Positions 11,396 through 64,000 of a DNA stretch of 64,000 nucleotides are shown here, piece by piece. Made by a program: the position numbers and the translations under genes. This DNA is from Desulfobulbus propionicus (GTDB lineage Bacteria > Desulfobacterota > Desulfobulbia > Desulfobulbales > Desulfobulbaceae). The stretch's first letter is position 1, and every line of letters begins with the position of its first letter. The DNA lies in NCBI GenBank assembly GCA_002748755.1, contig PDTD01000017.1, positions 85,979-149,978 on the forward strand. The letters are read 5' to 3'. Below the pieces are notes generated by a model. That model had not been told where the DNA came from. It searched no databases and saw only the letters and a list, made by a program, of their open reading frames with translations.

Positions 11396-11533
11396 CTGCT
11401 CGATAGTATTTGCCGAAAGAGGGGTGGCACGAACCACCAGAGAACATCTTGCATAGAGGCATGGTTATATATGTGAATACCTCGTCGTGTGGAAGGATGG
11501 GAGGCGTATAACGAAATGCATACTGCAGCCACC

Positions 11534-11923
11534 ATGTATATCTGTGTTGATTTTGACGGAACGATTGTAGATCATCAATTTCCCAAGATAGGGCAGCCTG
11601 TCCCTGGGGCCATCAGATGGCTGAAACGATTTATTGCACTGAAGGCAAAAATAATTCTTTTTACTATGCGCTCAGATAATATGGCCCATGGAGATGTGTT
11701 GAGCGAGGCCGTGCAATACCTGCGCAAGGAAGGTGTGCATCTCTACGGGATTAACCGGAATCCTGAACAGGACCGTTGGACCTCAAGCCCCAAGGCGTAT
11801 GGACAACTCTATATCGATGACGCTGCTGTAGGTTGCCCCATAATACATCCCGACGGATTTGCCAGACCCTGTGTTGACTGGTCCAAGGTGGGACCGTATG
11901 TGGAATCGATTCTGATAGAATAA
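11534..11923 (+). CDS. HAD-like hydrolase
   Basis: A 129-residue protein from the start MYICVDFDGTIVDH. It carries HAD motif I (DFDGT), a motif II-like segment (KIILFTMRSD) and a motif IV-like region (LYIDDAAVGCP). It is short, with no large cap domain, and resembles small HAD proteins of unknown substrate. The longer frame from 11489 would add 15 residues without a ribosome site, so the ATG directly before the conserved strand is preferred. It stands alone on the plus strand. Confidence 0.75.
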   Translation: MYICVDFDGTIVDHQFPKIGQPVPGAIRWLKRFIALKAKIILFTMRSDNMAHGDVLSEAVQYLRKEGVHLYGINRNPEQDRWTSSPKAYGQLYIDDAAVGCPIIHPDGFARPCVDWSKVGPYVESILIE

Positions 11924-12057: not shown

Positions 12058-12309
12058 CTAAGATGCCGGAAGGTTCGTGCCTCCCGGTTTCCCAATGGTA
12101 AGGACTACTCCGTAGGTACGCTCCTCTCTCATGATAATCTCTCCACCTGCATGGGCGACCACCTTGTTCATGCCGTCTGCCATAAGCGGCACACAAAGAA
12201 AGGTAAACTGTTGGCCCGGAGACATGTTTCCTAGACGTGCCCGCACGTCTTTGTAGCCCCATCAACAGTCTTTACGGTAATCAATATCTATTCGGTTGCG
12301 TTTTCTCAT
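12058..12309 (-). CDS. TusA/SirA-like selenoprotein candidate (UGA = Sec16)
   Basis: ATG 12309 has a strong ribosome site (AAGGAG, 7-nt spacing). The frame runs 83 residues to TAG 12058, interrupted once by TGA at 12262-12264 (codon 16), directly after Cys15. Reading through gives DYRKDC-U-WGYKDVRARL, then NMSPGQQFTFLC, and AGGEIIMREERTYGVV. Length and layout fit TusA-type sulfur carriers (a Cys near residue 19, then an M-x-P-G turn, then an 'ggei' strand), although the CPxP motif is absent. Sec would replace or join the catalytic Cys. A 7-bp hairpin begins 11 nt after the UGA. Without Sec insertion only 15 residues would be made. The TusA assignment is by layout and is moderate. Confidence 0.6.
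12233..12250 (-). promoter_or_regulatory. Bacterial SECIS-like hairpin for UGA 12262-12264
   Basis: On the minus strand, 11 nt after the UGA, AGACGTG pairs perfectly with CACGTCT around a CGGG loop. The loop starts 18 nt after the UGA and has G at its second position. This is the known geometry for SelB-bound bacterial SECIS elements, which lie inside the coding region. Confidence 0.6.
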
Positions 12310-12789
12310 ACTCAGTCTCCTTGTCAGTAAGGAAAGTGTTCTCTTGGGGATGGTGATACAATGCGTTGCCTCTTTTCTGTCAATCTGGTTCAATCTAAGG
12401 AGGTACGACCATATACGGACGAATAATCCATGGGTATCGTCTTGTAGTGCAACAGTGGATTTACTGCAGCCGTCGCGGATTGAAAGACATGAAAAATACT
12501 GGTAGTAGCCGATGCTCTTTACCTTGGATACTAAACTATATATCGCATACAAACAATAACCTGAAAGGGTGAGTATCAAAAAATACCGTAGGTATTCTGT
12601 GGACAGGATGTTTGCTCAGGAACAGGCAAGAGGCCCTTGGTTGCAAAAGAAATTCTCTGAGGTACACCACCTGGCATGGTCAGTAGGCACGAAGGAAAGT
12701 ACCCGAGTGATACGCGAACACTCCCGAGATATCCCAGCTCCCATTGACCCAGAGCTAAACAAACTCACTATCTTACGATGGCAAGCCTC
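12310..12789. other. Intergenic, no convincing gene
   Basis: No recognisable protein. A plus-strand frame opening with GTG at about 12572 (SIKKYRRYSVDRMFAQEQ...) runs into the repeat at 12790, which would supply its C-terminus. It resembles no family I know and is not called. The promoter of the TusA-like gene should lie in the left part. Confidence 0.4.
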
Positions 12790-12966: not shown

Positions 12967-14202
12967 TCAAGGTCTCCAAGTTGGCTTTTTGCAGGTGTCC
13001 TGATAGAATGGTTTACCGAAGGCATCACGCTGTGAACTAAAGTAGTGTACCGTGGGCGGCATATAGGCATCATGATCGGGAAAGAGATTGCCAAACAGCG
13101 TGCGGCATGGCTCCAGAAAATCCTTACGCTGCAGAGTCGGGAAATACTTTTGAGCGCAGGCAATCACAGGGTCGAAAAAATGGTGCCCCATGAACATATC
13201 ATATGTGATACTGAGAAATGCGCCCGTTTCCATACGATTATACATATTCAGGTTCTCTTCGGGCAAGCCCTGGTCACGGCGTCTGCGCATATCGATGCCG
13301 ACACTGAGGTCCCGGTGCACTACGCGTTGTATATCACCTTGGACATTGACTTCAAGCAGAACATTCTGTCCGTGGGGCTCAAGCATATAGCCCAGCAAAA
13401 GGTAGCAGTGCACCCAATGACGAATAATGGGAAACATCAGCTGTTCAAGTAGATATTCCAGGGGATGGCGGGAGGCTATCAGCTCAATGAGCAGAGGAGG
13501 GGTGTTCGGGGCGAAATAATTGGCGCCGTGGAGGGCAAACCCGGGTATAAGGTAGCGCCTTTCCGTACTTTGGGGAAACGGGGTCATTTCACGGACCAGG
13601 TAGCCCCAATGCTCACCTCTGAGCATTTCTTGCTTTGGAACAATCTGCTGCTGTTTTATAGACAGTCCCAACACTTCACGCAAAAAGGCAAAATTTTCAT
13701 CCAGGGCGGCAATGTGATGCTCCAATTCCAGGGAGACATTGATGGCCTGTTCAATAACCTCGTCCCGCATTTTCCTGCTATATCTGGACACTTTGAATGG
13801 AAAGTGCACTTTAAGCGCGTGCGCTGGAAGCTCTTTGCTGTCCACATACAGGGTTCGGGTGGAGGAACTGGGGATAACAGGTATAGGGGGGAGAGGAGAG
13901 GCTGCCTGCAGCACCGTCTGCAAAAACGGGTCGTGGTCAACACTCTGAAGAACCTGGGGATGGATGCAGAAAATGGCCTGATTCCCAGGCAGGTACTGCT
14001 GTTCCAGTTTGGGGTGTGGACCTGCAGTATAGATGTTGACCATGTCGCGGCGCAGGGAAAATGGAGTGAGCTTGAACCACGGCGTTTCAGCGTTGGGTCG
14101 ATACTGCTCCAGAGCTTCTGTATACCCGGCTTGGTCAGAATAGTTTCTTGTCCCTTCGTTGTGGTAACGGTCCAGGTAAATAAGAGACGGGTACATGGTC
14201 AC
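12967..14202 (-). CDS. IucA/IucC-like protein (NIS synthetase-related), orphan
   Basis: A 411-residue protein related to NRPS-independent siderophore synthetases. The first third is poorly conserved. The middle has ALKVHFPFKVSRYSRKMRDE and the C-terminal part has EPHGQNVLLEVN followed by VVHRDLSVGIDM, resembling the ligand-binding region of the IucA/IucC fold. Family members are usually about 580-620 residues, so this one is short. No siderophore transport or other biosynthesis gene is nearby, so a siderophore product cannot be claimed. It is transcribed alone, and the ATG at 14196 is an alternative start. Confidence 0.65.
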   Translation of the reverse strand: MTMYPSLIYLDRYHNEGTRNYSDQAGYTEALEQYRPNAETPWFKLTPFSLRRDMVNIYTAGPHPKLEQQYLPGNQAIFCIHPQVLQSVDHDPFLQTVLQAASPLPPIPVIPSSSTRTLYVDSKELPAHALKVHFPFKVSRYSRKMRDEVIEQAINVSLELEHHIAALDENFAFLREVLGLSIKQQQIVPKQEMLRGEHWGYLVREMTPFPQSTERRYLIPGFALHGANYFAPNTPPLLIELIASRHPLEYLLEQLMFPIIRHWVHCYLLLGYMLEPHGQNVLLEVNVQGDIQRVVHRDLSVGIDMRRRRDQGLPEENLNMYNRMETGAFLSITYDMFMGHHFFDPVIACAQKYFPTLQRKDFLEPCRTLFGNLFPDHDAYMPPTVHYFSSQRDAFGKPFYQDTCKKPTWRP

Positions 14203-63167: not shown

Positions 63168-63796
63168 GATCACGTGTATTGGTCAACAAAAAACGGACAC
63201 ACAATTAAGCAGCATTTAACAATCATTTTTTTCATAAGCCATGGGAGATAGATACCCCAGGGTCGAATGCAACCATATGCTGTTGTAGTAAGTGATGTAA
63301 TCCAGGATTTCACTCTTAGCCTGACGCCTGGTAACAAACCGACATGCGTTCAACCGCTCTGATTTCAAGGACCGAAAAAACCTTTCGGTTGGGGCATTGT
63401 CCCAACAGTTTCCTTTACGGCTCATACTGGCCTTCATGCCATAAAGTGTAAGTTGTTTTTGGTATTCAGGGCACGCATATTGGCTGCCGCGATCCGTATG
63501 GTGCAGTAAGCCGTTGCAAGGGCGTCCAGTGCGAATTGCTTTTTCATCCGTTTATCCATGGACCAACCAACGATTTGACGGCCCTCGGACATTAACTGCT
63601 GCACGATCCTTCAAAAACCGTAACTGGCCCTGGATTGATCGAATATCTCCTTAATTCGGCTCTGTTGACTCCGGCGGACCTCCACATCCTCGCCAATTAC
63701 GGATGCTTCTGTGTTGCCTTCGGCGACCGTTAAAACCCTCGGCGTCCGCGGGTTACTCTCTCGAAGCTGTACCAGCATTTCAGGGTGCACGACCAC
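63168..63796 (-). mobile_element. Decayed IS3-family element
   Basis: Reading the minus strand from 63796: SQQSRIKEIFDQSRASYGF, then a TGA (a CGA in most relatives) and RIVQQLMSEGRQI. A jump to VGWSMDKRMKKQFALDALA shows that about 100 residues are deleted. After a frameshift come HHTDRGSQYACPEYQKQL, then MSRKGNCWDNAPTERFF, SLKSERL and YITYYNSIWLHSTLGYLSP. These are IS3 OrfB motifs including the DDE Asp and Glu regions. The left end near 63168 (GTATTGGTCAAC, then ACGGACACACAATTAAG) resembles IS3 termini. It is inactive. Confidence 0.8.
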
Positions 63797-64000
63797 CCCT
63801 GCGGCCTACAGGATTCTCTGCCTACGCTTAACCCATCTTGTTCGATACCCTTTTTATTGCTCTTTCAGTTGGGTGAGTCCATCTGCGCTTGTATCCGGGG
63901 GTCCCGGGCGCAGCTCGTTTCCAGCCAAGTTGCCTCAGCGTCCTAAACTTACAATAGCCGGTGTATCTCCGCCATGGGTCCAAGGCTCGATACGGGTGGG
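63797..64000. other. Unresolved sequence at window edge
   Basis: I see no known gene. One minus-strand frame encodes a basic stretch (RYTGYCKFRTLRQLGWKRAA, then PGTPGYKRRWTHPTERAIKR) that I do not recognise. It may belong to another mobile element continuing beyond the window. Confidence 0.25.

Follow-up and report, generated by a model that had tools for sequence, protein, structure and literature searches.

A 64,000-nucleotide stretch of Desulfobulbus propionicus DNA (hereafter the window) carries on its minus strand, at 12058..12309, a gene of 83 codons and a TAG stop whose codon 16 is an in-frame UGA. The explanation that best accounts for the evidence as a whole, to which we assign a probability of about 0.6, is that this UGA is decoded as selenocysteine (Sec) and that the product is a small selenoprotein of TusA fold acting as a chalcogen relay. 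With TGA taken as Sec, translation from 12309 to 12058 yields MRKRNRIDIDYRKDC-U-WGYKDVRARLGNMSPGQQFTFLCVPLMADGMNKVVAHAGGEIIMREERTYGVVLTIGKPGGTNLPAS, followed by TAG; the 83 residues include a C15-U16 pair, encoded by the Cys15 codon at 12265-12267 and the UGA at 12262..12264 (minus strand). The first-pass annotation had placed the gene correctly, though without naming a strand, and its proposal that a frame interrupted by TGA after 15 residues continues to an 83-residue product is borne out by the translation. The plus-strand reading was rejected, as that frame contains a stop and encodes an unrelated sequence. Ordinary gene callers would be expected to truncate the gene at codon 15.

The in-frame UGA and its decoding

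We propose that the ribosome would decode the UGA of codon 16 as Sec by means of a selenocysteine insertion sequence (SECIS) and the products of selA, selB, selC and selD, a step that the computational evidence makes practically certain. Searching 96 related genomes at the protein level gave 64 rows from 48 genomes. Of these rows, 61 contain an in-frame TGA (in the G074 row only at the match end, while one further row relists a broken copy in G090); the remaining three are a TAA copy, a broken copy and a protein unrelated to the family. Locus by locus, 76 loci were scanned, 4 of which duplicate an already counted place, and among the resulting 72 distinct copies 68 have TGA at the codon 16 position. 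Departures from the rule are of individual kinds: G074 (L090) has Thr-Leu at the site in place of Cys-Sec, G090 (L087) carries a second, broken copy lacking TGA at the site, and G048 (L018) has TAA at the Sec site with its SECIS hairpin intact, a second copy in the same genome keeping TGA. In G031 the TGA is kept, but the frame stops after codon 46. A match in G035 (L093) was discarded as false, being to an unrelated protein without TGA at the site. As an observation in its own right, the TAA copy in G048 (G048:C24, L018 / L067), with its hairpin preserved, looks like a very recent loss of the gene.

A profile built from 62 sequences (alignment A4) and run against 395 genomes of the phylum matched 38, of which 32 strongly (E <= 3.2e-15), and each of the 32 strong matches contains exactly one in-frame TGA, the site having been read residue by residue in 30 of these genomes. 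Sec is the only invariant column of A4, a consequence of the row-selection pattern, which demands TGA; the independent evidence for its conservation is thus the in-frame stop counts of the 96-genome and 395-genome searches. The homologues are not confined to short fragments, and the sequence remains under constraint after the UGA: the median ratio of nonsynonymous to synonymous substitution (dN/dS) past this codon is 0.30 in clade A (168 of 253 pairs, those with 0 < dS < 2.5, and the first 55 codons at most). Clade A, which contains the window protein and the motif DYRKDCUWG, is supported in the tree at 99/96, and clade C (DSRKDCUKG) at 100/100; the remaining sequences, B, mostly with DYRGDCU[KR], are paraphyletic and many inner forks are left unresolved. 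Several genomes carry two copies, one close and one distant, and plasmids gave no match at E <= 0.01.

Behind the TGA lies the perfect 7-bp hairpin with a CGGG loop, starting 11 nt further on, that had been noticed at first pass and that the sequence confirms (12233..12250, minus strand; loop at 12240-12243, UGA-to-loop distance 18 nt). This hairpin is a bacterial SECIS. When the 72 loci with TGA at the site were reduced to 67 sequences by merging identical 75-nt stretches, 456 of 469 base-pair cells in the seven stem columns proved to be paired, compared with 297.2 +/- 8.4 (maximum 325 in 2000) after resampling of synonymous codons according to local codon use. Over 64 distinct rows, 97.1% of cells are paired, with two-sided change at five of the seven pairs, while slid partners pair in just 24-61% of cells. 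Most of clade A, for example, has GTG...GCA where many clade-B sequences have GTA...TTA, exchanging G-C for A-U and Ala for Leu. The second loop position is G in all 67 sequences; at the other extreme, L086 forms only three of the seven stem pairs. Published limits for bacterial SECIS elements are a stem of 4-16 bp, a loop of 3-9 nt, a G at loop position 1 or 2 and a distance of 16-37 nt from the UGA (PMC13188914), and as far as geometry goes the present hairpin, with a 7-bp stem, a 4-nt loop whose second base is G and 18 nt to the UGA, falls within them. Among the window's 2308 TGA triplets, counted on both strands, 2 have the same geometry (7 bp, 4-nt loop, loop G), and we disfavour a chance origin of the hairpin and TGA at 12058..12309 because the TGA is conserved at the same codon in 68/72 copies. 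The other occurrence (16657, plus strand), with 17 open codons before and 34 after, resembles chance and was set aside.

The genome from which the window derives encodes a tRNA-Sec with anticodon TCA, SelA, and SelD, the last itself with one TGA. Absence of the Sec machinery had been named as grounds for abandoning the assignment; selA, selC and selD are in place, whereas two SelB models gave no match in this assembly, which is 90.66% complete. G013 (89% complete) and G017 (85% complete), both likewise carriers, also yielded no SelB. The six further genus members that were searched all have SelB, as do 346 of the 395 phylum genomes (31 of the 32 strong carriers among them), and incomplete assembly is the likeliest reason why no SelB was recovered in these three cases.

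If the gene did not encode a selenoprotein, a 15-codon peptide or a decayed gene would be followed by a chance frame past a real stop. The failure to find SelB in this assembly is compatible with that, as are the TAA in G048 and the early end of the frame in G031; the conservation, the dN/dS past the UGA, the SECIS covariation and the single TGA in every one of the 32 strong matches argue against it, and we regard it as highly improbable. An open frame across UGA cannot by itself tell which residue is inserted, so that Trp or Cys supplied by a near-cognate tRNA could be envisaged instead of Sec, but in view of the tRNA-Sec (TCA), SelA, the TGA within SelD and a hairpin within the printed limits this is barely credible. 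The first-pass annotation's selenoprotein with a Cys-Sec pair is supported by conservation, by a covarying SECIS and by Sec genes in the genome. It had also pointed to a strong ribosome site: a Shine-Dalgarno-like AAGGAG does stand at 12317..12322 (minus strand), with the ATG 7 nt downstream, but it is no trait of the family, a Shine-Dalgarno-like tetramer or better being found in 4 of 24 clade-A copies. A promoter and terminator scan found neither.

Predicted TusA-like fold and the position of Sec

We have good confidence in the next part of the proposal, namely that the protein would adopt a TusA-like fold with Sec at the place of the sulfur-acceptor cysteine of TusA, at the start of helix 1, and Cys immediately before it. 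Both structure models have E. coli TusA as their top-ranking match. For the first model, a second-look alignment has TsuB/TusA/SirA chains in its first six rows, with TsuB giving the highest VIA Z (10.0, 2.3 Å over 73 residues). The first model predicts a helix at residues 15-28 that includes Sec16, and the second a helix at 26-38 that includes its Sec27. It is Sec, and not Cys15, that occupies the position of the TusA cysteine, with the same spacing from a conserved Asp and where helix 1 begins; the suggestion of a C-U pair at the catalytic cysteine of sulfur carriers thus holds for the Sec, but Cys15 is not the matching residue.

How far the likeness extends is best seen against known systems. 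With TusA (PF01206; E. coli TusA, PDB 3lvj chain C, 1dcj) the protein shares its size and predicted fold, and an acceptor placed 6 positions past a conserved Asp at the start of helix 1; it differs in having Sec for Cys and a Cys directly preceding the acceptor, in lacking CPxP and in not keeping TusA's conserved Asp. TsuB (YeeD), the partner of the thiosulfate transporter TsuA, is a cysteine protein. Although it is the closest structural match by VIA Z, no TsuA-family transporter is among the identified neighbours of the gene studied here. YedF (TIGR03527) likewise has a TusA-type domain, one tied to selenium metabolism (PMC5322559, PMC2432076), but it combines CPxP with a second, DsrE-like domain, whereas the present protein is a single domain of 83 residues with Sec; the YedF architecture (SirA plus DsrE) is accordingly absent, and the YedF model is not among the matches listed. 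Other sulfur-handling selenoproteins, such as DsrE-like UxxC proteins, rhodanese forms 1-5 and YeeE/YedE GUxSG proteins in the table of PMC13188914, also place Sec in a sulfur-handling protein, but in other domains.

Several results weigh against simple inclusion in the TusA family. CPxP is absent throughout, the residue after U in the 67 sequences being W (24), K or R (32), or A, S or L (11), and never Pro. The position that matches TusA Asp45 by spacing holds Asp in only 10/24 members of clade A, 8/35 of B and 1/8 of C. Profile-profile comparison by hhalign with 21 TusA proteins of relatives was negative (probability 0.2-6%). Pfam BRCT_2 matches six of the 62 members (best 0.0059), and in Foldseek the L11-methyltransferase PrmA ranks between TusA chains. 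PF01206 itself matches seven of the 62 members at E <= 1 (best 2.6e-4), and the window protein, encoded by a gene of less than 260 bp, matches no Pfam or NCBIfam model, PF01206 included, at that threshold; among NCBIfam models none fits the family, one member touching the TusA model at E 0.1. Two matches in a PDB sequence search, at E 1.3 and 1.9, were dismissed as chance. Because CPxP is missing, the window protein is TusA-like but not proven TusA: of the first-pass label, the fold and a distant homology stand (both models' first match, and six next profile matches of TusA or YedF type), and plain TusA membership does not.

Gene neighbourhood and candidate functions

The function may be relay or trafficking of selenium or sulfur. 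In the mechanism that we propose, the selenolate would, in the manner of TusA, accept sulfane sulfur or zero-valent selenium from a persulfide or perselenide donor, and Cys15 would discharge the cargo by forming a Cys-Sec selenenylsulfide that is later re-reduced. We give this chemistry somewhat less than an even chance. That the cargo would be chiefly selenium is doubtful; the suggestion comes from one branch, in which the selenoprotein gene overlaps or immediately adjoins a gene for a selenium-metabolism LysR regulator. Among 56 carriers searched, seven clade-B genomes have a LysR gene directly upstream on the same strand; in six of the seven pairs the genes overlap or lie <= 9 nt apart, taking the best-fitting start codon, and in the seventh the gap exceeds 100 nt. 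All seven regulators pass NF040786 'selenium metabolism-associated LysR family' with 254 to 273 bits against a cut-off of 250. Judging by its name, this model corresponds to the LysR subfamily that PMC5322559 ties to Sec biosynthesis. Besides Sec itself, this gene pair is the only selenium-specific hint.

The wider distribution of these genes counts against a selenium relay. LysR_Sec_metab is present in 42 of 56 carriers and in 14 of 24 non-carriers, a difference that is not significant (Fisher p 0.18), and the sole match in the window's genome, at 217 bits, falls under the cut-off. In clade A, to which the window protein belongs, no fixed neighbour extends beyond single genera, and no neighbour is common to all clades. 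Of the nine clade-C loci (L206-L214; one protein of each kind was named by model match), eight have adenosylmethionine decarboxylase (speD) and agmatinase (speB) genes upstream and eight are followed by a gene for tRNA-dihydrouridine synthase, with seven loci showing both arrangements. The downstream gap is -49 to 28 nt in seven of the eight cases and 429 nt in the other. The dihydrouridine synthase neighbour is the only tRNA-linked hint.

The main rival to the relay is a purely redox role, in which an enzyme built on the TusA-like fold would use a Cys15/Sec16 selenenylsulfide cycle to reduce persulfides, disulfides or peroxides without delivering any cargo. Cys immediately precedes Sec in 66 of the 67 distinct sequences, a third Cys is found at position 39 in all 24 clade-A members, and most uncharacterised selenoproteins are considered likely to be redox proteins in PMC13188914. 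This third Cys is, however, missing in 23/35 clade-B and 8/8 clade-C members, and sulfur carriers lead the structural matches, with no thioredoxin-fold chain among those listed; we therefore see a redox enzyme as possible but on balance unlikely. The sole non-Cys predecessor among the 67 sequences, in the genus-mate G005 (L014 / L064, G005:C43), bears on the relay as well: since Ala precedes Sec there, the Cys-Sec pair is not essential in that genome, which speaks against the proposed explanation.

Alternatively, the vicinal Cys-Sec could bind a metal or metalloid, holding Hg, Cu, As or a cluster. CU-motif families with metal-related names (SaoL, HgcA, MbdU and a CopZ-like protein) appear in PMC13188914, a gene for a CxxCxxCC protein adjoins the selenoprotein gene in five loci (one checked), and a CbiK-like chelatase gene follows in seven loci of other branches (two checked, both under the model's cut-off). 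Both kinds of neighbour are nevertheless confined to few families, and no metal-resistance gene is among the identified neighbours, which are a small share of all neighbours, making this role clearly unlikely.

In the window itself, 12967-14202 (minus strand), upstream of the gene and on the same strand, encodes a siderophore-synthesis-type protein with IucA/IucC and FhuF-like domains, and 11489-11923 (plus strand) a relative of the BT0820-type HAD phosphatase family whose score is under the family cut-off. At the window end, 63658-64000 (minus strand) contains group II intron domains (Rfam RF02005).

Novelty and implications

The family looks like a new selenoprotein family on a known fold, overlooked so far and found in one bacterial phylum. 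The selenoprotein table of PMC13188914, whose scope is given there as 119 families or subfamilies, lists neither a TusA nor a SirA protein, and the literature yielded no TusA-like selenoprotein among the matches listed, although an earlier report may exist. The family is unusual in that no Cys form occurs in the material searched. In the 395 phylum genomes the profile met no Cys version, the next match being TusA, and the six weak matches (E 6.1e-5 to 9.1e-4) are stop-free proteins with CPxP-type or similar TusA/YedF cysteine motifs. A scan of genome contigs for a Cys form, a null result that applies to the motif DYR[GKR]DCC[WKR] only, returned 53 stretches, of which the one claimed relative, L095, was rejected as chance because it sits in a different reading frame of a 508-residue open reading frame. 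With no Cys form in the 395 genomes or the motif scan, the family exposes a blind spot in selenoprotein detection; the authors of deep-Sep state that it may misidentify selenoproteins lacking Cys homologues (PMC12013277).

A bolder and rather unlikely extension is that these proteins are obligate-Sec selenium carriers or sensors of TusA fold, without any Cys form, which would pass or report selenium to the Sec pathway and the LysR regulator. As their own production requires Sec, they would be made only when selenium is plentiful, and at low selenium the gene product would be no more than a peptide of roughly 7-30 residues. According to PMC13188914, neither the form of selenium that SelD uses inside cells nor its delivery system is fully elucidated. 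A TusA-like protein with a reactive Sec, preceded in one branch by the gene of a selenium regulator, may thus constitute a concrete and testable candidate for selenium delivery.
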